The position numbers and the translations under genes were made by a program. This document shows positions 3,532-42,575 of a stretch of 42,575 nucleotides of DNA, piece after piece; within the stretch, counting starts at the first letter, position 1; each line of letters opens with the position of its first letter. Under the pieces are notes generated by a model. The model worked only from the letters and a program-made list of their open reading frames with translations, did no database searches and had not been told where the DNA came from. The DNA comes from Nitrospirota bacterium (GTDB taxonomy: Bacteria > JACPQY01), in contig JACPQY010000025.1 of the NCBI GenBank assembly GCA_016190245.1, positions 1-42,575 of the forward strand. The letters run 5' to 3'.

Positions 3532-5667
3532 CTACGCGATGGAGCCGAGTTCGAGGCGGCCGTGCCAGCGGGCGACGAGTCTCTCTCGCGTGAAGCGGTG
3601 CTCGGGACGCGCGAGCGCGGGGTCGGTCGCCAGGACGCGACGGGCCCACTCCTGGGAGCGGCGAAGCAGCGCGGTGTCTTCGATGAGATTGCCGAGGTGG
3701 AAATCCGGGTAGCCGGACTGCCGTAGGCCGAGAAACTCGCCCGGGCCGCGGATCCGAAGGTCCTCCTCGGCGATCCGGAATCCGTCCTGCGTCTCCACCA
3801 TCGCCTTGAGCCGCTGCGCGGCCTCCGGACCGGCTTCTTTGCCCACGATGAGCAGACACGTGGAAGACTCCGCGCCGCGCCCCACGCGGCCTCGGAGCTG
3901 ATGGAGCTGGGCCAGCCCGAACCGCTCGGCGTGCTCCACCACCATGAGCGTGGCGTTGGGCACATCAATGCCCACTTCGATGACGGTCGTGGCGACGAGG
4001 ATCTGGATCGCGCCATCGCGGAAGGAGCGCATCACGGCGTCCTTCTCCTCGGCCTTCATGCGGCCGTGCATGAGGCCGACCTTGAGGTGGGGAAAGATCC
4101 GGGTCCGAAACTCCTCGGCCATCTGTTTGGCGTTTTTCAGATAGACCTTTTCCGAATCCTCGACGAGCGGGTACACCAGGAAGGCCTGGCGGCCCTTGCC
4201 CACCTCGTCGTTTACGAACGTGTAGAACCGGGCGCGCCGGCCGTCCGGGACGATGCGCGTGACGATCGGTTTGCGGCCGGGCGGCATCTCATCGAGCGTG
4301 CTCACATCGAGGTCGCCATAGAGCGTCATCGCGAGTGTCCGCGGGATCGGCGTCGCGCTCATGATGAGGACGTGGGGCTGGACGCCTTTTCGGAGGAGCT
4401 CGGCGCGCTGGGCCACGCCGAAGCGATGCTGCTCGTCCACGACGATGAGTCCCAGCCGGTTGAAGGCCACCGCCTTTTCGATGAGTGCATGCGTGCCGAT
4501 GAGCGTGTGGACTTCGCCGGACCGAGCCGCTTCAAGGATTTCTTGACGCTCCACCGTGGACGTGCCGCTTGTCAGCAAGGCGACCTGGGTGTTTGTCTTT
4601 TCCGCCCACGTGCCGAGGGTTCGGTGATGTTGTTCGGCGAGGATCTCGGTGGGGGCCATGAAGGCGGTTTGGAAGTCGTTGTCTGCCGCGCGCAGCGCGG
4701 CGAGGAAGGCCACAATGGTCTTGCCGCTGCCCACGTCGCCTTGGAGGAGACGGTTCATGGGCCGCGGGCGGGCAAGATCGGTCAGGATTTCGGCGAGGGC
4801 GCGCTCCTGTGCCCCCGTGAGGCTGAAGTCCAATGCCTTTCGCAGGAGGTCGCCGCGCCCCCCGGGTTTGGTCATGGCGTGCCCTGCGGCCGCATCGGAG
4901 GCTCGCCGGCGAAGCAACAAACCCAGCGAGAGGAGAAAGAACTCTTCGAGGATGATCCGCTCCTGGGCGGGCGTCCGTCGGGCGAAGAGGATTTGCGGGT
5001 TACGATCAGGAGGGGGGAAATGGGTCTCCTCAACGGCCTGGGGGAGTGGCATGGGGGCTTCGCGCTGCAGCGTGGGCGGGAGCGCGGAGCGCAGTTCGGT
5101 CTTCGCCAGATCGAGGGCCGCGCGGAGGATGGTGCGCAGTCGGCGCGTGGGGATGCCGCCGATCTCGGAATACACGGGCACGATCCGGCCGTAGTGCAGC
5201 GAGGTGGTTGCGGGCACTTGCGGGCCCGGCCCCGCCTCGGGGAGCCACTCGACCTCCGGATGGAGGATTTCCATCTGCCCGCGGTAGGCCTGGGCCGTTC
5301 CGGTGAGCACGACGCGGAATCCCGCGCGGAAGAGGCGTTCGTACCCGGCGCGGAAGTGGAACCACCGGCAGGTGAGATGGCCCGTCCCGTCGGTCAACGT
5401 CACTTCCAGGAGTTGCCGGCGACCCGCCGTGAGGCGCAGACGGGAGCCGACCACGCGACCGGTCGTGGTGACTGTTTCACCGGGCCGGATGTTTCGGAAT
5501 GTGGTCACCGAGCGCCGGTCCTCGTAGGTTCGCGGGAAGAAACAGACGAGGTCTTCGAGCGTGCGGATGCCGGCGGCCTCGAGGGCGGCGCCGATCTTGG
5601 GTCCCACGCCCTTGACGTAGCGGACGGGCCGTTGGAGGACGGGCTCGCGATTCGGTGCCGCGATCAT
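3532..5667 (-). CDS. recG: ATP-dependent DNA helicase RecG
   Basis: RecG is a monomeric superfamily-2 branch-migration helicase that regresses stalled forks and processes Holliday junctions. The N-terminus RYVKGVGPKIGAALEAAGI is the usual RecG helix-hairpin-helix-like start, followed by an OB-fold wedge (VTTTGRVVGSRLRL...). The helicase core shows Walker A GDVGSGKT, the DEQH box (VVDEQHRFG), SATPIPRT and the motif VI region QLHQLRGRVGRG. Length 711 aa, near the family norm. I chose ATG 5667 because it gives the normal N-terminus; an in-frame ATG at 5718 would add 17 residues encoded by the inverted repeat that fills the gap to greA. Last gene of the pyrR-to-recG minus-strand run, though the repeat may separate its expression from greA. 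Confidence 0.95.
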   Translation of the reverse strand: MIAAPNREPVLQRPVRYVKGVGPKIGAALEAAGIRTLEDLVCFFPRTYEDRRSVTTFRNIRPGETVTTTGRVVGSRLRLTAGRRQLLEVTLTDGTGHLTCRWFHFRAGYERLFRAGFRVVLTGTAQAYRGQMEILHPEVEWLPEAGPGPQVPATTSLHYGRIVPVYSEIGGIPTRRLRTILRAALDLAKTELRSALPPTLQREAPMPLPQAVEETHFPPPDRNPQILFARRTPAQERIILEEFFLLSLGLLLRRRASDAAAGHAMTKPGGRGDLLRKALDFSLTGAQERALAEILTDLARPRPMNRLLQGDVGSGKTIVAFLAALRAADNDFQTAFMAPTEILAEQHHRTLGTWAEKTNTQVALLTSGTSTVERQEILEAARSGEVHTLIGTHALIEKAVAFNRLGLIVVDEQHRFGVAQRAELLRKGVQPHVLIMSATPIPRTLAMTLYGDLDVSTLDEMPPGRKPIVTRIVPDGRRARFYTFVNDEVGKGRQAFLVYPLVEDSEKVYLKNAKQMAEEFRTRIFPHLKVGLMHGRMKAEEKDAVMRSFRDGAIQILVATTVIEVGIDVPNATLMVVEHAERFGLAQLHQLRGRVGRGAESSTCLLIVGKEAGPEAAQRLKAMVETQDGFRIAEEDLRIRGPGEFLGLRQSGYPDFHLGNLIEDTALLRRSQEWARRVLATDPALARPEHRFTRERLVARWHGRLELGSIA

Positions 5668-6429: not shown

Positions 6430-8988
<2,559 letters not shown>

Positions 8989-8994
8989 GGTGAC

Positions 8995-9669
8995 CTACCG
9001 TTCGCGCATCACCTCGAGCTCGTATTCCTTCCAGCCGATCACGGATTCCTCGACGAGCACCTTGTGCACGGGGCTGAGGGCGAGGGCGGAGTCGAGGGCC
9101 CGCACCAGTTCTTTCTTGTTTCGGGCGATTCCGCCGCCGGTGCCTCCGAGGGTGAAAGACGGGCGGAGGATGAGGGGATAGCCCACCTCGGCGGCGAAGT
9201 GGAGGCCCTCCTCCACGGAGGAGACATAGCCGCTGCGGGGCACTTCGAGGCCGATGTTGGCCATCGCCTGTTTGAAGAGATCGCGATCCTCGGCCTTGCG
9301 GATGGATTCGGGCCGGGCGCCGATGATCTCGGCACCGCACGCCTGGGGCGTGCCCATCTCCACGAGCTCCATTGTGAGGTTGAGGGCCGTCTGCCCGCCG
9401 AGCGTCGGCAGGATCGCCTGAGGCCGCTCCTTTTCGATGATTCTGGCCACGAGCGGCGCGACGAGCGGCTCCACGTATGTCCGGTCCGCCGTTTCGGGAT
9501 CGGTCATGATCGTGGCGGGATTCGAGTTGACGAGGATGATCTTGTAGCCTTCCTTGCGGAGCACTTTGCACGCCTGGGTTCCGGAGTAGTCGAACTCGCA
9601 GGCCTGCCCGATCACGATCGGCCCGGAGCCGATGATCAGGATGCTTTCGATGTCGGTGCGCTTAGGCAT
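8995..9669 (-). CDS. carB: Carbamoyl-phosphate synthase large subunit, N-terminal 224 codons before an in-frame TAG
   Basis: The fragment starts [20 protein letters not shown] and has the typical ATP-binding start ([34 protein letters not shown]) and the ATP-grasp glycine loop ([17 protein letters not shown]). It ends [13 protein letters not shown] followed by TAG at 8997-8995. In other CarB proteins the equivalent position is an ordinary residue in MRDxxDNVVIVCSIEN. Natural split CarB proteins known from some thermophiles break between the two synthetase halves, not inside the first ATP-grasp. A nonsense mutation, sequencing or assembly error, or readthrough are all possible. carA lies 81 bases upstream. 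Confidence 0.9.
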
Positions 9670-31315: not shown

Positions 31316-31732
31316 ATGCGCGCGTGCCTTTCGACTGACGGCGGAGAGATCGTGCTATTGGGGAGCCGAACGACCATCGGTCGCAGCGGGGAAAACGAGA
31401 TTCAGATCATCGACGAACGGGGCTCGAAACAGCATGCTCGCATTCTGAAAGAGGACGACGGCAGGTTCGTGATCCTCGACCTCTCGAGCAGGAACGGCAC
31501 GTTCGTGGGAAATGAGCGCATACGCAAACATTCCCTGCGCGTCGGGGACACCTTCCGCATCGCCGGCCATACGTTCACTTACGAAGAACGAGACGCAAAC
31601 GATCCCGTCCTGCAAGACCCCAGCGTCTCGATCAAGCTGCTCTCGGGGCCGGCCAAGGAAGGGACCTTGAGCGTGGAGCAGCCTCTGCCAAGCAAACTCA
31701 ACCTCCCAGAAAGGAACGGTGGAAAGGCATGA
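31316..31732 (+). CDS. FHA domain protein
   Basis: 138 aa from ATG 31316, preceded by GGAGAAGG. An FHA phosphothreonine-binding domain covers residues ~1-90: GSRTTIGRSGENEIQI (GR loop), SKQHARI (S and H), LDLSSRNGTFVGNERI (NG motif), LRVGDTFRIAGHTFTY. The remaining tail is unstructured. No signal peptide, so cytoplasmic. The partner phosphoprotein and kinase are not in the window. The stop overlaps the ATG of the next lipoprotein gene by four bases. Confidence 0.9.
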   Translation: MRACLSTDGGEIVLLGSRTTIGRSGENEIQIIDERGSKQHARILKEDDGRFVILDLSSRNGTFVGNERIRKHSLRVGDTFRIAGHTFTYEERDANDPVLQDPSVSIKLLSGPAKEGTLSVEQPLPSKLNLPERNGGKA

Positions 31733-32439
31733 GAAGAATACGGGCGAGGTACGCCGTCGTTTTGGCGGTTGTGCTCTGCGGCTGCGTGGATACCGCCAAA
31801 GACTGGACCGGCGGCGAAAGCGCGAAGGTTGCTGCGCAAACGACTGCGCTCACGGGTCAGTTCATCAGGGGCGACGCCTTGGAAGGCGCTCGTGCAGGCA
31901 TCCGTGCGGGCATACGCGCCGATGTCGCTGAGGGTGTTCGCGCATCAAGCTTGCGGCGCCAAATGGGCGATCCTCTCGCCGATCACGCGCTCTACTGTGT
32001 GACCTTTGAGTCCGAGCCCAAGGCGGCCAAGGGCCTCGCCGACATCGAAGGGCGCTTTCAAGTGACGATTGAAAGCATCGCCCCATTCGGTTGTTTCGTG
32101 CTTGACCCTGAAGGGGCGAGAGTGGCCGAGCTTTCGTTCTTGAAATCGGAAAGATCGCCCGACGGCAACTTTGCGCTCACGGGCGCGACCCAACTTGCCG
32201 GAAGCGCCGACATCGGTGAGGTCCTCGTGGACCTTGATACTTCCGTTGCGCTCGCCGAGATCCAACGGTCGGTGCCCGTCATCGTGGACCGTCTTTGGGA
32301 CCCGACGGGCACATGGAAATTCGTCCAGTGCGTGGAAACCGAGCCGCGTTCGTGCAAAGGCGACGCGCTCACCACGTACGCGTCCCTCTTCGACGACAAG
32401 AGCCTCTATTTTCGGCTCAACACGAGAAAGTGTGGGTAG
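31729..32439 (+). CDS. Lipoprotein, 5' part of a gene interrupted by an insertion
   Basis: 236 aa as it stands. Lipoprotein signal YAVVLAVVLCGCVDTAKD. It then has an Arg/Gly repeat (ARAGIRAGIRADVAEGVRASSLRRQ) and a domain (FQVTIESIAPFGCFVLDPEGARVAEL) resembling the N-terminal domain of the large lipoprotein at 27494. The last nine codons and the TAG stop come from an inverted repeat that starts at 32413. Deleting 32413-32639 joins SLYF directly to IVFVDVPAYTNFIRW in frame, giving a 345-codon gene ending at 32993. The shown product is therefore probably truncated. No named family recognised. Confidence 0.8.
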   Translation: MRRIRARYAVVLAVVLCGCVDTAKDWTGGESAKVAAQTTALTGQFIRGDALEGARAGIRAGIRADVAEGVRASSLRRQMGDPLADHALYCVTFESEPKAAKGLADIEGRFQVTIESIAPFGCFVLDPEGARVAELSFLKSERSPDGNFALTGATQLAGSADIGEVLVDLDTSVALAEIQRSVPVIVDRLWDPTGTWKFVQCVETEPRSCKGDALTTYASLFDDKSLYFRLNTRKCG

Positions 32440-32639
32440 TTTTGGGATGGGACATGTTGTCCAAGTGGTCGCCGCGGGCCATGCAAAGCCCACGGCGAGC
32501 CACTTGGACAGCCCCGAGAAGTGGTTGCGAAAAGCGGGGAGCCGAAGAAGTCACTCTGTACTGGCAAAACACCGTTAGAACAGGGAGATAGCTAGGAACT
32601 GACCTTGGAATCTACCCACACTTTCTCGTGTTGAGCCGT
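32413..32639. mobile_element. 227-bp insertion with perfect 27-bp terminal inverted repeats
   Basis: 27-base arms at 32413-32439 and 32612-32638 (left arm begins CGGCTCAACACGAGAAAG) are perfect reverse complements. Between them is a second strong hairpin with arms GTCCAAGTGG/CCACTTGGAC at 32459-32509. No transposase is encoded. Removing 227 bases restores a continuous lipoprotein reading frame, which strongly suggests an inserted MITE-like element. Only a one-base flanking duplication (T) fits, so the mechanism is unclear. Confidence 0.7.
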
Positions 32640-32993
32640 ATTGTTTTTGTGGACGTGCCCGCCTACACGAATTTCATCCGCTGGAACGCCGACACGAAGA
32701 TACCGCGCCTCACCTACATCGAACCGACGACGTGGTCCGCTACGGTCCTCAACGTGTACCAAGCGGGTCTGATCGACGTGGACGGCGAGTCCGTCGAGTG
32801 CAAACTCATCGCGCACGATCAATTCTCCGCTGTGCTCACTGACCCGGGGCGTGCACTGTTCACAATGTCCTCGGTTGCCGAGATCCCGAAAACAGGACCG
32901 TGCGCTGACCATGTCGATCTCCTGCCGCCTTGGGTCAAAGACTACGTGGACGAGTCTGAGCGTATCACGATGCGCGCCGAACTCGTGCCGTGA
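32628..32993 (+). pseudogene. 3' part of the interrupted lipoprotein gene
   Basis: The open frame encodes IVFVDVPAYTNFIRWNADTK to MRAELVP. Its original coding begins at 32640. A GTG at 32628 lies in the inverted repeat and is unlikely to be a natural start; there is no Shine-Dalgarno and no signal peptide. Together with 31729-32412 it makes one 345-codon gene. The sequence matches no named domain that I recognise; it has alternating strands and two Cys. Confidence 0.65.
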
Positions 32994-33401: not shown

Positions 33402-33602
33402 ATGGGGGGCATCGATTTCAACCTGATCGATGAGGAGTGGATCCCGATCCTCGGCACCGACGGGAAGCCGCGCCGCGTCGGCATCCGAACGGCGCTGACG
33501 GAAGCGGGCCGCATCCGCCAAATCACCGCCTCGAACCCGATGGACAACGTGGCTCTTCTGAGCTTTCTGCCGGCGGTGCTCCACTGGTGCAAGCCGCGAT
33601 GA
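33402..33602 (+). pseudogene. Truncated second copy of cas8e (cse1) N-terminus
   Basis: 66 aa, NLIDEEWIPILGTDGKPRRV then GIRTALTEAGRIRQITASNPMDNVALLSFLPAVLHWCKPR. It closely matches the first ~97 residues of the intact Cse1 at 34832, with DNA similarity high from 33476 to 33596 and ending abruptly at the TGCAAGCCG codons. It lacks the ~23-residue insert present in the intact copy. A normal Cse1 is about 500 aa, so this is a relic of another or duplicated type I-E operon. Confidence 0.8.
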
Positions 33603-33612
33603 GAAACAAACA

Positions 33613-33855
33613 ATGACCACAGACGGCAAGGACGAATCTGGTCGCCCGGACGCTTGCCGGCCGCCGTTGTGGGCCAAGACAGCTCAGGACGGCGATCACC
33701 TCACCTACCACCGCTTGCTGTGTCATATGCTCGATGTGGCGGCCGTGACCTTTGCCAATGAAGCAGGCTTCGATGGACCTGTCCGCCGCGAAGACCCTGG
33801 AGGGCATGCCGGATTGACCCACGCCGGGTATCCGCGAAAGGCAGGCGGACCGTGA
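33613..33855 (+). pseudogene. Cas3 N-terminal (HD domain) relic fused to unrelated sequence
   Basis: 80 aa. The first ~48 residues (RPPLWAKTAQDGDHLTYHRLLCHMLDVAAVTFA) look like the beginning of a type I Cas3 HD nuclease, where LWAKS...H-x-LLxHLLDVAAV is typical. After FANEAG the sequence no longer resembles Cas3. All later HD residues and the whole helicase are absent. It begins ten bases after the cse1 relic and its TGA overlaps the GTG of the nucleotidyltransferase gene. Identification is by motif memory; a profile search would settle it. Confidence 0.65.
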
Positions 33856-34358
33856 AGCTGTCCAGTCTTGAGGCGATCGTATCGGCCTTGAACCGACACG
33901 ACGCGCGCTTTCTGATCGTGGGCGGATTGGCCGTTGCCGCGCACGGCTACGGGCGCGTCACCTTCGATCTGGACCTTGTCGTGCAGTTGAAGCCGGAGAA
34001 TCTGCGGCGGGCGATGAGCGCATTGGAATCGCTCGGCTATCGTCCTGTCCCGCCGGTCTCCGCGCAGGAATTCGCCGATCCCGCTGCTCGCGAAAGGTGG
34101 ATTCGGGAGAAGAACATGGTTGTCTTCTCGCTTCGTAGCGAGCAGCATCGGGATACGCCCATCGACGTTTTCGTGGCGGAACCTTTCGATTTTGAGTCGG
34201 AATATGACCATGCCCTCATGGGAGACCTCCTACCCGATGCGCCGACCCGCTTCGTGCGACTTGAGACGCTCATCCGAATGAAGGAAGCCGCCGGACGCGA
34301 AAAGGACCGCGATGACGTGCGGCACCTGAGACTGTTGCGGGAGAATCCGGATGAGTAG
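33852..34358 (+). CDS. AbiEii/AbiGii-like nucleotidyltransferase
   Basis: 168 aa from GTG 33852. The nucleotidyltransferase signature is GGLAVAAHGYGRVTFDLDLVVQ (GG...TxDxD), followed by VFSLRSEQHRDTPIDVFV and a C-terminal helix typical of the family (RFVRLETLIRMKEAAGREKDRDDVRHL). Such proteins act in AbiE-type toxin-antitoxin or abortive-infection systems. It overlaps the downstream small gene by eight bases. Its position between cas relics and cas8e suggests insertion at the place where cas3 would normally lie. Confidence 0.85.
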   Translation: MKLSSLEAIVSALNRHDARFLIVGGLAVAAHGYGRVTFDLDLVVQLKPENLRRAMSALESLGYRPVPPVSAQEFADPAARERWIREKNMVVFSLRSEQHRDTPIDVFVAEPFDFESEYDHALMGDLLPDAPTRFVRLETLIRMKEAAGREKDRDDVRHLRLLRENPDE

Positions 34359-34722
34359 CAGTCGGAGCGACCCGAAGCCGGCGATGCGGAGGCCCCATGA
34401 TCCTTCCGATCATCGTCCCCGGAGCGGAGCGGAGGGGGCGGTCGAGTCGGATGGGTGGCGCGAGCATGAACTCTCGCAACTCCGATATTTCCGTTCCCTC
34501 CCCCTGCGCGAGAAGCTGGAGGCGGTTCAGGGAATGGCGGACATCGTCCGGCGCCTACGGCAGATGCGCGAGGAGGGTGCGCTCAAGCCCGCCGTGCCAG
34601 TTAGGGCGGGCAAGCCCGCCGGCGCCGCGGGCGACATCGGCCCGGGCCAAAGTTCGTCCTCCGTCCACGAGCCCGCGCCTGCGTACGGTCGAAAGAAAGG
34701 CAGGTCGGACCCGCCAGGATGA
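34351..34722 (+). CDS. Small partner protein of the nucleotidyltransferase
   Basis: 123 aa, overlapping the nucleotidyltransferase gene by eight bases. The core WREHELSQLRYFRSLPLREKLEAVQGMADIVRRLRQM is of the helical type I associate with short proteins encoded next to AbiEii-like nucleotidyltransferases. The last ~45 residues are Gly/Pro/Ser-rich and may be non-native. Probable cognate partner or antitoxin-like component; not shown by sequence alone. Confidence 0.6.
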   Translation: MSSSRSDPKPAMRRPHDPSDHRPRSGAEGAVESDGWREHELSQLRYFRSLPLREKLEAVQGMADIVRRLRQMREEGALKPAVPVRAGKPAGAAGDIGPGQSSSSVHEPAPAYGRKKGRSDPPG

Positions 34723-34831
34723 CGTTCGCCGCCCAGTCGCCGAACTCCGGGGGCCGGCGCCACGATCTTGCCGAGCACCTGCAGGGGGGCGAGTGACAAG
34801 GCCAACTACTTCTGCACGGGAGCATCGGGCT

Positions 34832-36625
34832 ATGACTCAGGGTGCGAGTCCGTCCGGAATGGATGGTTACAATCTGGTTGAACGGGCGTGGATTCCCGTT
34901 TTGAAGGTCGATGGAACATACGGCCAGGGAGGGCCTGTACCCGGAGCCTTCAAGAGATGCCAGGACGGCATCTCGAAACCTCGCGGAGGGTGCGGTCGCG
35001 TCGGCATCCGAGCGGCGCTCACGGAGGCGGGCCGCATCCGCCAGATCGCCGCCTCGAACCCGATGGACAACGTCGCCCTTCTTCGCTTCCTGCTCGCGGT
35101 GCTTCAGTGGTGCAAGCCGAACCCGACCGATAAGGAACGCAATCGACTCAACGGCGCCGAGGGCATTCCGCCCGAGTGGCTGTCGAATCTGGGAATCGTC
35201 GCGAAGCCGAACGAGGCGTTCAATCTGCTCGGTGACGATCGACGCTTCCTCCAAGACAAGCAGTTGCTCGCCGACTTGTTGAGAGACAAACAGAAGCAGT
35301 GGGACAACCGCGAGAAGAAGAAGACGAAAAAAGCCGCTGGATCGCGTCAGGGCAATCCAGTGAGAGCTACCACGAACGAGCGGCCCAAGGCTCTCGACGA
35401 GGACGATTATCGCCCGGTCGGTGACCTGCTCGTGGAGTTCCCAACCGATACGAAGATTGCCCATTTCCGCCACGTGCGCGACAAAGAGTACGGCCTATGC
35501 CCGGCCTGCTGCGCATTGGGGATTGTTCGGTTCTGCGCGTTTGCCAACGCCTACGGCGGCGGGCGGTACACGTCGGCGGCCAACGGTCCCACGCCCGCGT
35601 ACGCAATCGCGTGGGGCGCGACGCTGCTGGACACATTGCGGCTGCACTGGCCCGCGAGATGTACCTCACCCCGGCAACCGCCGTGGTTGTGCGCCGCCGC
35701 CCCCTCAAAGGACGACCTCGACATCGTAACAGTGTTCGCATGGCGATCCCGCCGGCTCTGGCTGGGTGATCCCGGAGACGAGAGCACCTGCGCCTACTGC
35801 GGCCAGCCAGCCGCACTCATTCGGCAACTGGCGTTCACGGGCAACTGGAAACCGCCCTTTGAAACCGCGGGTCAGCAGAAGAAATTCTGGGACAAGGATC
35901 CGCACTTGGTCCTCATTGACAAGAGTCAGGCGGCAGGTGAAGAAGAGGAGAGCGGCAACTCAAATCAGGAACAGTCCGCCACGGCGCCAAAGACGAAAAA
36001 GAGCGCCGTGGTCAAGACCACACTCGGCTTCCCATCTCCAAGTGCGAGGGTCACGGGGCATTCAAGATTCTGGCGGCGCGTCCTGAGCGCCAAGGCCACG
36101 GAGCAGGCTGATGCGGATGGAACGCCTGCGACCCTCATGGTTGCCGGTCCGGCCGCCAACAAGGGGCTATACCAGGACGCCGCCGCCCTCCACCTGCGCG
36201 TCCCTGTCGTCGGTGCCGCTCAGACGCTTGAGGCTCAAGGAAAAGCGGTCGAGGCGGTGAGCGGCGTCCTGCGGCAGAGCACGCCGAATCCAGATCGCCA
36301 GCACCCCAACCGCATCGCTGTGCTCGACGCCTTGTCTCCGTCCTTGGAGGCTGACCTACGGCGCGACCTTGATCGGTCATTGGGCACGAATCCGCCGGGT
36401 CGGTTGATTGATGCATTGGGGGAGCGACTCGCGCCAGTCGTCGAGCGGGTCGTCCGCTCTACTACCCCCGGTTCGCCTCTGCGGCGGCGCGAGGCGATGG
36501 CGCGGGCGCGATCAGCCTTGGACGCGGCGCTGCACAAGGCCACCACCCCGTTGAGCAAGGCGTCCTCGCGGAAGGACGCGGCGAAGCCGGAGCGCACGCG
36601 CAAGAAGAAGGAGGCCACCTCGTGA
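34832..36625 (+). CDS. cas8e: Type I-E Cascade large subunit Cas8e (Cse1/CasA)
   Basis: 597 aa from ATG 34832 (CGGGAG upstream); ATG 34859 is possible. Cse1 recognises the PAM and, in standard systems, recruits Cas3. The N-terminus NLVERAWIPVLKVDG and SNPMDNVALLRFLLAVLQWC are family-typical. Two Cys pairs, C223/C226 (GLCPACC) and C320/C323 (TCAYC), probably bind zinc. A helical C-terminal bundle ends in a Lys/Arg-rich tail. Extra features are a ~23-residue Gly/Pro/Cys insert at about 30-55, absent from the relic copy, and a basic linker at 161-175. First gene of the cas operon; overlaps cse2 by four bases. With Cas3 absent locally, its recruitment surface may have changed role (inference). 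Confidence 0.92.
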   Translation: MTQGASPSGMDGYNLVERAWIPVLKVDGTYGQGGPVPGAFKRCQDGISKPRGGCGRVGIRAALTEAGRIRQIAASNPMDNVALLRFLLAVLQWCKPNPTDKERNRLNGAEGIPPEWLSNLGIVAKPNEAFNLLGDDRRFLQDKQLLADLLRDKQKQWDNREKKKTKKAAGSRQGNPVRATTNERPKALDEDDYRPVGDLLVEFPTDTKIAHFRHVRDKEYGLCPACCALGIVRFCAFANAYGGGRYTSAANGPTPAYAIAWGATLLDTLRLHWPARCTSPRQPPWLCAAAPSKDDLDIVTVFAWRSRRLWLGDPGDESTCAYCGQPAALIRQLAFTGNWKPPFETAGQQKKFWDKDPHLVLIDKSQAAGEEEESGNSNQEQSATAPKTKKSAVVKTTLGFPSPSARVTGHSRFWRRVLSAKATEQADADGTPATLMVAGPAANKGLYQDAAALHLRVPVVGAAQTLEAQGKAVEAVSGVLRQSTPNPDRQHPNRIAVLDALSPSLEADLRRDLDRSLGTNPPGRLIDALGERLAPVVERVVRSTTPGSPLRRREAMARARSALDAALHKATTPLSKASSRKDAAKPERTRKKKEATS

Positions 36626-37179
36626 GCCAGACCGTCGCCTACATCAAGCGGCTCGAAGACCTCCAGGAAGGGGAGCGCTCGCGCCTGCGCCGACTGGCCG
36701 GAAATCCGCTGAACGCGACGCTGCCGGGATTCGACCTGTTTACCGGCCTGTGGTGGCCGCTTCGGGCCAAGAATCAGGCCGCCCCGCGCCGCGAGACGAG
36801 CTGGCTGGTCGCCAAACTCTACGGCGCCTTCCCGGTACCGCATGTGCGACCCGAACAAGGCGTCGGCCCGAGTCTTGCCGCCGTCTTGGGCCTCTGCGAA
36901 CCGCGGGATGAGCGTGCCGGACCGCGATTTCGGAGCCGATTCGACGGTCTTATCTGTGCGCCTCTATCGGCGCTGGAGCCGCACCTCCGATGGGCACTGG
37001 GCGAAGTCGCCCGGGCCGTCGCCGGACGCCTGCCGCATGTCCGGGATGTCGCGGGCATCGACTGGGCGCAATTGCTCGACGACCTGTCCATCTGGGACCG
37101 CGCCGACGCGCACCACCCACGGCGTGACATTCGTGACCTCTGGGCAGAAGAATACCTGAAAGCTGTCCGTCAACCCTGA
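36622..37179 (+). CDS. cse2: Type I-E Cascade small subunit Cse2 (CasB, Cas11)
   Basis: 185 aa from GTG 36622, overlapping the cas8e stop (GTGA). Helical small-subunit pattern: VAYIKRLEDLQEGERSRLRRLAG, LYGAFP, RFRSRFDGLICAPLSALEPHLRWAL, and the C-terminal DWAQLLDDLSIWDRADAHHPRRDIRDLWAEEYL. In E. coli two copies of this protein form the belly of Cascade and stabilise the R-loop. Normal length. Confidence 0.92.
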   Translation: MSQTVAYIKRLEDLQEGERSRLRRLAGNPLNATLPGFDLFTGLWWPLRAKNQAAPRRETSWLVAKLYGAFPVPHVRPEQGVGPSLAAVLGLCEPRDERAGPRFRSRFDGLICAPLSALEPHLRWALGEVARAVAGRLPHVRDVAGIDWAQLLDDLSIWDRADAHHPRRDIRDLWAEEYLKAVRQP

Positions 37180-37192
37180 AAGGAGTTGGACC

Positions 37193-38461
37193 ATGCTCAT
37201 CGAAATCCACATGATCCAGAACCACAGCCCGTCGAACCTGAACCGGGACGACTTGGGCGCGCCCAAGACGTGCGTCTTCGGCGGCGTGACCCGCGCCCGC
37301 ATCTCCAGCCAGTGCCTCAAGCGCAGCATCCGGCGGAGCGTCGAGTTCCAGAAGGCCATGGAGAAGGACGGAGGGGTACGCACTCGTCGGCTGGCCTCGG
37401 TGCTGGCGCGAATCGTGGACTCCAAAGACTTTGACCTGACACCTGAAAAGCTGACCAAATTCCTCGCGACCAGCGAGGCTGCCAATGGTCCTTCGCTGGC
37501 GAAGCTGGAGGCCCTCGCTAGCGAAGCTTTGGAGCTAGGAGGCGTGAAGGCCAAAGGCAAAAAGAAGGACAAGAGCAAGCCGAAGGGCGAAGGAAACGAA
37601 AGCGGAGATGAGGGCGAGGACACTGAGGCCATGTCCAAGATGCTTCTCTTCCTCTCGACGGCCACCGTCGCGAAGATGGCAAGGGAACTGAAGGACGCTT
37701 CAAATGCAAAGCCACTGGCAGAGAAGTTCAAGGGCTGCATTGCCGAGAAACCGTGTGTCCCGGACATCGCGCTGTGTGGCCGCATGACTGAGGTAACCAA
37801 GAACAGCGTCTTCAGCGACCTGAACTTCACCGTCGAGGCCGCACTCTCCACCGCCCACGCGATCTCCACGCATGAAGTGATCAACGAGGTGGACTACTTC
37901 ACGGCGGCAGATGACATTCCCGGCCAGGACGCAGGCGCGGGCCACGTGAATGAGGGGATGTTCAACTCTGCTTGCTTCTACAAGCACTTCGCCATCGACT
38001 GGAAACAACTAGTGAAGAACTTGGGTGGGGACACCGAGCTTGCCGCCACTACGATCAAGTGCTTCCTTGAAGCCGCCGCCAGGGCCAACCCCTCTGGCAA
38101 GCAGCACGCGTTTGCCGCGTTCAATTGCCCCGACGGGATCCTGGTTGAAATCAAGACCAAATCGCCCACGCCGATCAGCTACGCCAACGCTTTTGCCGAT
38201 CCCGTGCCGCCGAAAACGGCGCGCGGTCTCATCGGCGAGAGCATCGCCCGCCTCGGCCAGTACGCCAACCATCTCATCGAAGGTTACGGCATCAACGCTG
38301 AGCGTTTCTGGTTTTCGCCGAAAAAGCGCTACGCACTGACGTGGATCGACAATGAGAAAAAGGAGCACGAACGGGAACAGTCCGTAGTCGGAACGTCAAA
38401 CGAGTTCGGCGACTTCGGCAAGTTCATCGGGGCGATCATGGACAAGGTGGCCAAATCGTAG
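37193..38461 (+). CDS. cas7e: Type I-E Cascade backbone subunit Cas7e (Cse4/CasC)
   Basis: 422 aa with AAAGGAG upstream. Cas7e forms the crRNA-binding filament. Typical motifs: IEIHMIQNHSPSNLNRDDLGAPKTCVFGGVTRARISSQCLKRSIR, FSDLNFTVEAALSTAHAISTHEV, FAAFNCPDGILVEIKTKSPTPISYANAF. It is about 60 residues longer than E. coli CasC. Much of the excess is a charged, low-complexity insert at about 118-147 (KGKKKDKSKPKGEGNESGDE), which would form a flexible loop on the filament. Confidence 0.95.
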   Translation: MLIEIHMIQNHSPSNLNRDDLGAPKTCVFGGVTRARISSQCLKRSIRRSVEFQKAMEKDGGVRTRRLASVLARIVDSKDFDLTPEKLTKFLATSEAANGPSLAKLEALASEALELGGVKAKGKKKDKSKPKGEGNESGDEGEDTEAMSKMLLFLSTATVAKMARELKDASNAKPLAEKFKGCIAEKPCVPDIALCGRMTEVTKNSVFSDLNFTVEAALSTAHAISTHEVINEVDYFTAADDIPGQDAGAGHVNEGMFNSACFYKHFAIDWKQLVKNLGGDTELAATTIKCFLEAAARANPSGKQHAFAAFNCPDGILVEIKTKSPTPISYANAFADPVPPKTARGLIGESIARLGQYANHLIEGYGINAERFWFSPKKRYALTWIDNEKKEHEREQSVVGTSNEFGDFGKFIGAIMDKVAKS

Positions 38462-38472
38462 GAGGTGAAGGC

Positions 38473-39591
38473 ATGACCAGTCTTTCCACCGTCTTCCTCC
38501 GCCTCGAAGGGCCGCTCCAGGCGTGGGGCGACAACTCGAAGTTCGTCATACGGCGCACGATGGAGGGGCCGACGAAGTCCGGCGTGCTCGGTCTCATCTG
38601 CTGCGCGATGGGGCTGTCGCGCCAGGCCGCGCGGGAACGACTGCCGGAACTGAACAAACTGACCATGGGCGCGCGAATCGACCGGCCCGGCACCCGCTGG
38701 TGGGACTACCACACCGTGGGGGCCGGCATAGGCATGATGACAGCGGCAGGCGGGATCAAGACGGGCGCCCAAGGCACGCTCATCACGCGCCGGGAGTATC
38801 TGGCCGACGCGAGTTTCCTGGTGGCGCTGCATGGCGAGGCAACGCTGATCAAGAAAGTCGCTGATGCTCTAACGTCACCGAAATGGCCGATCTTTCTCGG
38901 CCGCAAGTCCTGCCCGCCCTCCGTTCCCGTTTGGGCGAAACCGCGGTCAGGCGAGACGTGGACGAACCCGATGACGGGGCCGGAAGACCTGAAGTCCATG
39001 CTGGCTCTCGTGCCGTGGCATCCGCGCCATGAGGGTGATGAGCGGCCTGCATCCGGGGAGTTGCCCTGCCTGATCGAATGGCGCGCGGCCAACGAAGGCG
39101 ATATCGCGCCCTCGGATGCCGAGGTCTGGTACGACGCGCCGTTCTCCTTCGACCCCCCGGTGCATCATCCACGTCTGGTCGCACGCGAACAAGTCCCGGT
39201 TCAAGCGGGAAACGCGCTCCAGGAACGTACTTCAGTACCCCCAAGGCCGCGGGCAGACTATCAGAACACGGAATACAAAGAGGCTCGCAAAAAACGCATC
39301 GAATCCGACCACGGCCTGTGCGTTTTCTGCAAATCCCCGGCTACGACGGTCCAGCACGTCACCTACCGTCGGGCCGGTGGCGATGAACAACCGGACGATC
39401 TGCGCTCGCTCTGCCGCCTTTGCCACGATGCCGTCACGATGATCGAGTACGGACTGGGCATGGGAATCGACCGTATCAATCCCGAGGACTCCCGATGGCG
39501 CGATCCAATCATCAAGAAACGTCACGAGATCATCGAGTTCCGTTCCTTGGAGACGCGCCGGAGGCGTCTGAGCGCCGAGGAGGTCGAATAA
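38473..39591 (+). CDS. cas5e: Cas5e fused to a C-terminal HNH zinc-ribbon domain
   Basis: 372 aa with GGAGGTGA upstream; E. coli CasD is 224 aa. Residues 1-~250 are Cas5e: FLRLEGPLQAWGDNSKF, GPTKSGVLGLICCAMG, WWDYHTVGAG, REYLADASFLVALHG, FLGRKSCPPSVPVW. Residues ~262-330 form an HNH-type domain: GLCVFCKSPATTVQHVTYRRAGGDEQPDDLRSLCRLCHDAVT. Zinc cysteines C283/C286/C314/C317, general-base candidate H295, D309 and H318 are present. Two usual metal-ligand positions differ: Q294 before H295 and T322 where HxxxH ends. In standard I-E, Cas5e caps the crRNA 5' handle near the PAM end; a tethered HNH would lie close to target DNA. HNH-bearing Cascades lacking Cas3 (Cas5-HNH, Cas8-HNH) have been reported from large-scale mining. 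Confidence 0.93.
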   Translation: MTSLSTVFLRLEGPLQAWGDNSKFVIRRTMEGPTKSGVLGLICCAMGLSRQAARERLPELNKLTMGARIDRPGTRWWDYHTVGAGIGMMTAAGGIKTGAQGTLITRREYLADASFLVALHGEATLIKKVADALTSPKWPIFLGRKSCPPSVPVWAKPRSGETWTNPMTGPEDLKSMLALVPWHPRHEGDERPASGELPCLIEWRAANEGDIAPSDAEVWYDAPFSFDPPVHHPRLVAREQVPVQAGNALQERTSVPPRPRADYQNTEYKEARKKRIESDHGLCVFCKSPATTVQHVTYRRAGGDEQPDDLRSLCRLCHDAVTMIEYGLGMGIDRINPEDSRWRDPIIKKRHEIIEFRSLETRRRRLSAEEVE

Positions 39592-39593
39592 CC

Positions 39594-40361
39594 GTGTATC
39601 TCTCCTGTCTTCTGATCAATGTGGGCGAGAACCCCGACCGCCCACGGCCGGGACGACTGTGGCTGCGAAATCTCTACCACGTGCACCAGCGGCTGTGCAT
39701 GGCGTTTCCGTCGGTCAGGCGGAAGAACGACGACCGGGACTTCCTGAAGCCGTTCAACCCGGATGATTTCGGCTCCCAAGAGCCGAGACAAGTTCACGTC
39801 GAACGCAAAACGGAGGCCGGTTTCCTGTTTCGCATCGATCCTCAGCCCGGCGGTCGAGTCGTGATTCTCGTGCAATCAGCCTCCCCCGACAAACCGGATT
39901 GGGACTACGCTTTTCACAACGCGGACTATCTCCTCGCGGCTCCTCCGGACTCGAAACCATTCGACCCGTCTTTCGCGAGAGGACAAAGTTTTCAGTTCCG
40001 TCTCGTGGCCAATCCGACGAAACGAATTCGCAAGGACTCTCGGGAAGCGGATGGGAAAACCGTAGATGAAAAATGGATCAAGAAGCGTGTCCCCGTTCCG
40101 ACCGAAAAGCTGGATGACTGGCTCAAAAGACGGGCCGAGTCTGCCGGGTTTGGCGTCCGACAACTCACCAGCATTCAGGCGGGCTACATCTACGTCAACA
40201 AGACAAGAGAGGACAAGGGACAGCGCCTCCGGTCAGCACGGTACGAAGGCATCCTTGAGGTGACGAACCCCGGCCGGTTCCGGGAAACAATGGTTGGAGG
40301 CATCGGGCCGGCCAAGGCGTTCGGATTCGGGCTGCTTTCGGTGGCGGAATGCAAAACATGA
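39594..40361 (+). CDS. cas6e: CRISPR RNA endoribonuclease Cas6e (Cse3/CasE)
   Basis: 255 aa from GTG 39594, preceded by GAGGAGG in the end of cas5e. Cas6e cuts precursor crRNA below the repeat hairpin and stays bound. N-terminus YLSCLLINVG then LWLRNLYHVHQRLCMAF; H31 aligns with the catalytic H20 of E. coli CasE. RLVANPTKRI is the family core, and the glycine-rich RNA-binding loop is GGIGPAKAFGFGLLSVAE at the C-terminus. The matching substrate is the palindromic repeat at 42359. Confidence 0.95.
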   Translation: MYLSCLLINVGENPDRPRPGRLWLRNLYHVHQRLCMAFPSVRRKNDDRDFLKPFNPDDFGSQEPRQVHVERKTEAGFLFRIDPQPGGRVVILVQSASPDKPDWDYAFHNADYLLAAPPDSKPFDPSFARGQSFQFRLVANPTKRIRKDSREADGKTVDEKWIKKRVPVPTEKLDDWLKRRAESAGFGVRQLTSIQAGYIYVNKTREDKGQRLRSARYEGILEVTNPGRFRETMVGGIGPAKAFGFGLLSVAECKT

Positions 40362-40714: not shown

Positions 40715-41057
40715 TCCTCTGTCCGCTGTGCTCGACATGGTCCAGGCCATCGAAAGGGCTCATCAACTGTCCGCCGGATTGGGCGAAGCGGGATTCCTGG
40801 CCGACGAGCGGGCCCAATGGGCGGTTTACAGCCAGATCGTGATCTTGGGGGAAGCCGCAGGCCGGGTGGACAAGGAGTTTCAACGGGCGCACCCCGAGAT
40901 TCCGTGGTCAACCGCAATCGGAATGCGCCACCGGCTTGTGCACGGCTACGACAGCGTGGATTGGCTGCGCGTCTGGAAGACGCTTCAGGACGACCTACCG
41001 CCGCTCCTGCAACAGTTGAGAGGGCTGCTCCCCCATGAGGAAGGCCGAAAGAGATGA
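40704..41057 (+). CDS. HEPN domain ribonuclease-type toxin (HepT/DUF86)
   Basis: 117 aa with GGAGGTGAT upstream. Helical DUF86 fold with EAGFLADERAQWAVYSQIVILGEAAGRV and the catalytic-type motif RHRLVHGY (R-x4-H-x-Y). HepT RNases are held inactive by their MNT partner, encoded just upstream. The stop overlaps cas1 (ATGA), so the toxin is translationally linked to the adaptation genes. A pair inside a cas operon could guard the locus against loss or respond to its failure; that is inference. Confidence 0.92.
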   Translation: MPHDPLSAVLDMVQAIERAHQLSAGLGEAGFLADERAQWAVYSQIVILGEAAGRVDKEFQRAHPEIPWSTAIGMRHRLVHGYDSVDWLRVWKTLQDDLPPLLQQLRGLLPHEEGRKR

Positions 41058-42088
41058 GAGTCCAGGACCTCCACGTTCTGCCCAAGTTCCGCGACGGATG
41101 GAGCTACCTCTATGTGGACCACTGCCGAGTCGACCAGGAAGCCCGGTCCATCGCGATCCATGACGCGAACGGAAAGGTGCCGGTCCCCTGCGCCAACCTG
41201 GCCCTCCTGATGCTGGGACCCGGCGTATCCATTACGCACGCCGCCGTGTCGGTGCTGGCAGACCACGGTTGCCTCGTCGCCTGGTGCGGGGAGGAAGGCG
41301 TCCGGTTCTACGCGGTGGGCATGGGGGAGACGCGAAGCGCGTCGAGCTTGCTGCATCAAGCTCGGACTTGGGCGGACGCTGAACTTCGGCTGAACGTGGT
41401 TCGACGCCTGTACCAACTTCGCTTTCCCGGCCCCCTCGACCCGGCCCTGACGCTCCAGCAGATCCGGGGCATGGAAGGTATTCGAGTTCGGGAAACCTAC
41501 GCAAAGGCCGCGCGCGATACAGGCGTGCCTTGGTCCGGTCGAAGCTACCGGCGGGAAAACTGGGCCACGGCGGACCCGGTCAACCGCGCACTGTCGGTTG
41601 CCAACTCCTGCCTTTACGGTATCTGCCATGCCGCGATCGTCTCGGCGGGCTTCTCTCCGGCCCTCGGGTTCATCCACACGGGGAAAATGCTTTCCTTCGT
41701 GTACGACGTGGCGGATCTCTACAAGACGGAGGTGACCATCCCAACGGCGTTCCGCGCAACCGCTGATGGGACCGAAGGGCTGGAGCGGCGCGTTCGTGTG
41801 ACATGCCGTGACGCCTTCGTCTCCACCCGGCTTCTGGAGAGAATCGTGCCGGATGTGCAAGAGGTGCTGGATCTTCCGGCGCCAGGCGAGTCCGGGGCGG
41901 ACGAATCGCTCGATAAGGAAACAGCCGCACCGGGAGGCCTATGGGACCCGACCAAGGGAGAGGTGGAAGGGGGCCGAAGCCACACGATTGAGGCTGGAGA
42001 AAAGGAGGGTGCCGCGCCAGGAAGGCTGGCGGTACCCGGAGCGCCAGGGAAGGCAGAGGAGGGTGACGATGGTGGTCATGATCCTTGA
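41054..42088 (+). CDS. cas1: CRISPR integrase Cas1, type I-E
   Basis: 344 aa. Cas1 integrates new spacers with Cas2. Active residues match E. coli Cas1 at the same numbers: E141 (GMEGIRVRETY), H208 (GFIHTGK), D218 and D221 (SFVYDVADLYK). The protein is about 40 residues longer than E. coli Cas1. After a typical Cas1e ending (GLWDPTKGEVEGGRSH) it continues with a Gly/Glu/Ala-rich tail that runs 20 bases into cas2. Follows the HEPN gene with an ATGA overlap. Confidence 0.96.
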   Translation: MRVQDLHVLPKFRDGWSYLYVDHCRVDQEARSIAIHDANGKVPVPCANLALLMLGPGVSITHAAVSVLADHGCLVAWCGEEGVRFYAVGMGETRSASSLLHQARTWADAELRLNVVRRLYQLRFPGPLDPALTLQQIRGMEGIRVRETYAKAARDTGVPWSGRSYRRENWATADPVNRALSVANSCLYGICHAAIVSAGFSPALGFIHTGKMLSFVYDVADLYKTEVTIPTAFRATADGTEGLERRVRVTCRDAFVSTRLLERIVPDVQEVLDLPAPGESGADESLDKETAAPGGLWDPTKGEVEGGRSHTIEAGEKEGAAPGRLAVPGAPGKAEEGDDGGHDP

Positions 42089-42341
42089 ACGGGTGTCTCC
42101 GGGACTGCGTGGGGAACTGACGCGATGGTACTTGGAACCCCACGCCGGGGTGTTTGTTGGGCGGGTTTCCGCGATGGTTCGGGACCGGCTCTGGGAGAAG
42201 GCTTGTGGGTCGGCCAAGGATGGGGGCTGCGTGATGATCCATTCCAGCAACACCGAGCAGGGTTTCGCCATACGCACATGGGGGCGTACCGCCCGGTCGA
42301 TCAATGACTTCGAAGGGCTTTTTCTCGTCAGAACGCCGTAG
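42069..42341 (+). CDS. cas2: CRISPR adaptation protein Cas2, type I-E
   Basis: 90 aa: VVMILERVSPGLRGELTRWYLEPHAGVFVGRVSAMVRDRLWE and GGCVMIHSSNTEQGFAIRTWG, typical of Cas2e (CasCD) proteins. It forms the central dimer of the Cas1-Cas2 integration complex. Start ATG 42069 lies within the cas1 tail. The stop lies 17 bases before the first repeat. Confidence 0.95.
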   Translation: MVVMILERVSPGLRGELTRWYLEPHAGVFVGRVSAMVRDRLWEKACGSAKDGGCVMIHSSNTEQGFAIRTWGRTARSINDFEGLFLVRTP

Positions 42342-42358: not shown

Positions 42359-42575
42359 ATTGTCCCCACGCACGTGGGGGTGAACCGATACACGCTGTTG
42401 ATTTTTCGCCCACCTCATCATTGTCCCCACGCACGTGGGGGTGAACCGCTCCCGGATTCCCTCGGGCACGATCCGGCGCTATTGTCCCCACGCACGTGGG
42501 GGTGAACCGTTCAATCCTGAAGCACTTCGGAGGATCCACGCATTGTCCCCACGCACGTGGGGGTGAACCGGGGGC
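42359..42575 (+). CRISPR. Type I-E CRISPR array, start only
   Basis: Four identical 29-nt repeats at 42359-42387, 42420-42448, 42481-42509 and 42542-42570. Each has the stem CCCCAC-GCAC-GTGGGG and ends GTGAACCG, the usual type I-E form and orientation. Three spacers of exactly 32 nt lie between them and a fourth begins at 42571, where the window ends. Transcription is expected in the + direction, with the crRNA cut by Cas6e after the hairpin. None of the spacers matches elsewhere in this window by eye. Confidence 0.98.

Follow-up and report, generated by a model that had tools for sequence, protein, structure and literature searches.

The operon of a Cas5-HNH Cascade in a Nitrospirota bacterium is fronted by two truncated genes, a cse1 stub (cse1') and a cas3 stub (cas3'), which are probably pseudogene debris produced by recombination of two I-E2-type operon starts together with the loss of Cas3. 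The window, i.e., the whole stretch of 42,575 nucleotides that was analysed, is an entire contig of a MAG (3.29-Mb assembly, 85% complete), and misassembly of this MAG may be the source of the structure. As far as the accessible text of Altae-Tran 2023 (PMC10910872) goes, remnants or truncations of cas3 are rarely found near Cas5-HNH systems and were interpreted as progressive loss. A Cas3 remnant next to Cas5-HNH has thus already been reported, and our locus is a further example that shows two extra features. It has in common with the I-E2 loci described in that text the five Cascade genes, the HNH at the C-terminus of Cas5, the lack of an intact cas3 and a truncated cas3 nearby, while it adds a duplicated cse1 start and a mosaic intact cse1, and a nucleotidyltransferase pair in the cas3 slot. 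The locus would be a recent-looking snapshot of Cas3 vanishing from an HNH-Cascade locus.

The I-E2 operon and the genes in front of it

The operon, the two stubs and the genes between them lie on the plus strand. The operon consists of cse1 (34832-36625), cse2 (36622-37179; PF09485), cas7 (cse4; 37193-38461; PF09344 and tree), cas5-HNH (38473-39591; PF09704 and PF01844), cas6 (39420-40361; PF08798 and TIGR01907, with the true start probably near 39590), cas1 (41054-42088; TIGR03638) and, after cas1, cas2 (~42069-42341), followed by the start of a CRISPR array whose first four repeats (42359-42570) are seen before the contig end cuts it. The HNH domain is located at the C-terminus of Cas5e, and its catalytic and zinc-ligand residues are kept and are conserved in relatives. 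With an HNH on Cas5e and the I-E genes cse1, cse2, cas7 and cas6 in one operon without a functional cas3, the operon is of type I-E2 (Cas5-HNH), a variant name that comes from the classification paper (PMC12669027). It resembles canonical I-E operons (cas3-cse1-cse2-cas7-cas5-cas6-cas1-cas2) in gene order and in the position and type of its Cas3 stub, but it retains no helicase-nuclease and its Cas5 bears the HNH. Cas5-HNH Cascades cleave dsDNA without Cas3 (PMC11822464 and PMC10910872), and the latter describes precise crRNA-guided dsDNA cleavage by the HNH for another I-E2 member. Judged by analogy with these systems, the operon of the window has every part for Cas3-free dsDNA cutting, and Cas5-HNH would be the nuclease expected in place of Cas3.

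The preliminary description had recognised a truncated 66-aa Cse1 N-terminus and, ten bases further on, an apparent N-terminus of a Cas3 HD domain, and both the coordinates and this reading proved correct. The cse1' fragment (33402-33602, with 66 codons at 33402-33599 and then TGA) matched positions 1-57 of PF09481 (E 2e-13) in the Pfam profile search and TIGR02547 (E 8e-11) in the NCBIfam profile search. Ten bases past this TGA, the ATG at 33613 opens the 80-aa frame of cas3' (33613-33855), which occupies the position and strand of cas3 in canonical I-E operons, upstream of cse1. Only ~33670-33756 of this frame corresponds to the Cas3 HD N-terminus, as judged from PF18019, PADLOC and an alignment with 17 canonical I-E Cas3. 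When the frame was compared with Cas3 HD models, PF18019 (Cas3_HD) gave 25.6 bits, above the cut-off of 23.1 (E 1.5e-5), over residues 20-46 only (positions 1-26 of the 207 of the profile), i.e., the first helices of the I-E Cas3 HD domain. PADLOC typed cas3' as Cas3e (E 0.0012), and the intact I-E Cas3 of locus L139 was 57% identical to it across 28 aa (E 4e-4); NCBIfam gave no match. Up to codon ~48 the frame is equivalent to the beginning of an I-E cas3, and residues ~49-80 are an unrelated tail, not Cas3. The stub ends ahead of the HDxGK motif and has neither the HD nuclease motif nor the superfamily-2 helicase of I-E Cas3.

A search with a full-length Cas3 profile detected no further piece of Cas3, helicase included, in the window. 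This stub is all that the locus has of cas3 and, as had been described from the start, a complete cascade operon lies downstream. A 25-aa frame at 34719-34796, considered as another Cas3 start, was unsupported. Elsewhere in the 85%-complete MAG, neither a second Cse1 nor a further Cas3_HD above cut-off was present, and all Cas3-like helicase matches were below cut-off. A phage origin of the stubs was discarded, as cse1' had no match in phages and cas3' none in viral contigs.

The remainder of the cas3 slot, from the stubs to cse1, is taken up by a toxin-like nucleotidyltransferase (33852-34358; NTP_transf_5/DUF6036/AbiEii-like, by sub-threshold Pfam and PADLOC matches) and a small partner (34351-34722) that overlaps its stop. 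Homologues of the nucleotidyltransferase occurred in 9 of 20 other genomes and, since a similar small helical ORF follows at least five homologous nucleotidyltransferases in other genomes, the two genes appear to be a conserved pair of toxin-antitoxin type, with a putative function. In AbiEii/DUF6036 toxin-antitoxin relatives a nucleotidyltransferase is likewise followed by an overlapping small helical ORF, although the matches of our pair are below the curated cut-offs and its toxin activity is putative. A possible target-site duplication flanking the pair (a 16/17 repeat) was equalled in 181 of 2000 shuffles and is within chance. The earlier view that Cas3 was lost beside an HNH system agrees with this arrangement, in which the stub sits in the canonical cas3 place and the toxin-like pair fills the rest of the slot.

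Origin of the cse1 stub and of the mosaic cse1 start

In a tree of Cse1 N-termini, which is based on 60 columns and whose bootstrap values are not yet settled, cse1' fell inside the HNH-type Cse1 clade (90/96) as sister to the neighbouring intact cse1 (86/81). This grouping argues that cse1' was not derived from a canonical I-E operon and that its source is of HNH type. When the differences between cse1' and the intact cse1 were polarised, four nonsynonymous changes and one synonymous change were assigned to cse1', versus none and three, respectively, to the intact gene. Three of the four nonsynonymous changes affect sites that are invariant or nearly so across nine relatives, and the changes in cse1' include a helix-breaking proline within a conserved helix. 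The 4:1 versus 0:3 pattern is compatible with decay of cse1', although alone it is not significant (Fisher p 0.14). Apparent Cse1 N-terminal fragments in genomes G449 and G393 are contig ends and not truncations.

The intact cse1 has a chimeric N-terminus, its real start being at ~34832 and not at 34397. A repeat search revealed a 123-nt direct repeat with the left copy in cse1' (33474-33596) and the right copy in the intact gene (34997-35119). Identity between the two genes was 89% (109/123) over this stretch versus 55% (28/51) over the first 51 nt (p 3e-6), while closely related I-E2 pairs are similar in both parts, with ~46-48 identities in the first 51 nt. In addition, the intact Cse1 carries an N-terminal insert of ~20 residues (within 34832-34996) that is absent from every I-E2 relative. 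The mosaic identity and the insert indicate that two distinct I-E2-type cse1 starts probably met at the locus, which suggests that the mosaic arose when two I-E2-type operon starts recombined.

It is unlikely that the stubs are instead all that deletions left of another complete CRISPR-Cas operon once arranged in tandem on the upstream side (cas3-cse1'...deletion...cas3'-cse1). The order cse1'-cas3'-cse1 would be expected after deletions in a tandem cas3-cse1 repeat, in the related locus L011 the I-E2 operon is preceded at ~12 kb by an entire canonical I-E operon, cas3 included, and in locus L065 the I-E2 cse1 has upstream of it a cse1 stub with a frameshift and, after this stub, a CRISPR repeat. 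However, a canonical second operon is a poor fit to a cse1' of HNH type whose sister is the intact gene, the window contains no other cas remnant upstream, and nothing in it ahead of cse1 came within 11 mismatches (of 29) of a CRISPR repeat. The destruction of a second I-E operon had been one of the two origins proposed in the preliminary description. Its recombination with a second operon start is retained here, but the phylogeny of the relic makes the second cse1 I-E2-type and not canonical.

The cse1 stub of L065 (8776-8899) is independent of ours and, at the DNA level, is 83% identical to the intact cse1 of that locus. Between it and the intact cse1, on the minus strand (8941-9200; G360:C3), a crRNA-like gene is predicted, comprising a TTGATT/TATAAT promoter, one repeat of its own system, a spacer, a degenerate repeat and a hairpin with a T-run (terminator). 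The first 16 nt of the spacer match a site by a TTGACA box ~235 bp before cse1, with AAG as the PAM. The only mismatch falls at position 6, which is not read by type I-E Cascades. Since the same pattern is known from CreR self-repression (PMC12737573), we predict that the L065 element is a CreR-type self-repressor of the HNH-Cascade operon.

Age and ancestry of the cas3 stub

For comparison, loci were collected from one genome-collection scan and from searches of ~1,000 genomes, comprising three phyla plus a broad sample. This yielded 14 further loci of I-E2 type, in which the sequence available ahead of cse1 spanned 3.4-11.6 kb. Cas5-HNH was present on the same contig in 11 of them (L077, L011, L014, L063, L064, L065, L067, L133, L134, L136 and L137), while L013, L096 and L100 were assigned by Cse1 type, the genome of L100 having Cas5-HNH on a different contig. 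In each of the 17 canonical I-E loci, cse1 is directly preceded by cas3 within one operon; in the 14 I-E2-type loci, deep branches included, neither an intact nor a detectable partial cas3 precedes cse1. This contrast does not amount to 31 independent events because the compared loci share ancestry. The state before the rearrangement was seen in no sister genome; within the phylum two genomes were compared, and the other one had neither Cas5-HNH nor Cas3. Among plasmids only ordinary I-E Cas5 was found.

In the Cas7 tree the HNH clade forms a single group (96/88) within which the Cas7 of the window is nested. Identities between Cas7 proteins of this clade go down to 36%, and the clade is old. 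The stub, on the other hand, is hardly decayed. Over the 18 best-aligned residues, a median of 10 were identical between cas3' and functional Cas3s, and a median of 9 among the functional Cas3s themselves. Being as close to functional Cas3s as these are to one another, cas3' seems to stem from a recent loss. Since the HNH clade is otherwise without cas3, it is unlikely that this stub dates back to the time when HNH first took the place of Cas3. The lineage may have retained a Cas3 far beyond its loss in the relatives, or it may have acquired one again, the ~27 residues of the Cas3 match being too few to place the ancestry of cas3'. An example of a way to regain Cas3 is shown by L011, with canonical I-E and I-E2 operons in tandem. 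An intact cas3 next to Cas5-HNH in related genomes had been anticipated as an argument against the initial reading; the one in L011 answers to this only in part, because it belongs to a separate canonical I-E operon. In the Synergistaceae genome G003 (L011, L021), the canonical I-E operon, which has an array of ~100 repeats, is directly upstream, and cas1 of the I-E2 operon is broken.

These data also bear on the other origin put forward in the preliminary description, namely that cas3' marks, at its native site, the initial loss of Cas3 permitted by the HNH fusion, the operon having kept its own cas3 up to recent times before this eroded. The position, strand and type of cas3' are canonical, as such an origin would have it, and the discoverers of Cas5-HNH (PMC10910872) likewise read occasional cas3 remnants as progressive loss. 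Nevertheless, we regard it as rather improbable, because the 14 traceless loci include the basal L067 and L137, so that several independent complete losses would be required, and because the similarity of the stub to functional Cas3s points to a loss long after the fusion. The claim that the stub is the original loss enabled by HNH was thus not upheld.

Proposed history of the locus

The reading that we favour, recombination of two I-E2-type starts plus loss of Cas3, would have proceeded as follows. The conserved 123-nt stretch at the 5' end of cse1 would have served as the anchor for a recombination that joined two I-E2-type operon starts, with the former cse1 start staying behind as cse1' and a new one arriving together with an upstream 'cas3 - nucleotidyltransferase pair'. 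Cas3 would have been destroyed by the arrival of the nucleotidyltransferase pair, or earlier. According to the published HNH-Cascade mechanism, the operon would still have been able to cut DNA with Cas5-HNH, and therefore there would have been no selection for repair of Cas3.

After these events, the stubs are most likely without function. That they are small functional proteins of the operon, e.g., Cascade decoys or regulators, is very improbable: both frames are open and tightly spaced (a gap of 10 nt between them, and cas3' running into the start of the nucleotidyltransferase), and a Cas3 N-terminal frame of ~100 aa in L073 has stayed open despite strong divergence, but the changes in cse1' strike conserved residues, including the proline in the helix, just ~27 Cas3 residues are left before the unrelated tail, and a Cas3 stub is present in no other I-E2-type locus compared. 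The L073 frame (4932-5231), in which HD is changed to SN, is located directly before an intact canonical cas3, with overlapping stop and start.

If the favoured history holds, it suggests that cas3 may persist late or return beside HNH systems and then be lost again, as opposed to a single disappearance. It would also mean that the operon fronts of the rare I-E2 systems are built by recombination and that single-gene Cse1 trees may mislead; beyond this, the stubs would be ordinary genome debris. More speculatively, the I-E2 operon start could be a hot spot at which modules are spliced in via recombination at the 5' end of cse1, an old cse1 start being left as a stub each time. Such modules might be, with equally low confidence, the toxin-antitoxin-like pair at our locus and the crRNA-like repressor in L065. 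Upstream of the stubs, at 32413-32638, the window contains a MITE-like element of 226 bp with 30-bp terminal inverted repeats (97%), which seems to break the open frame 31729-32990.
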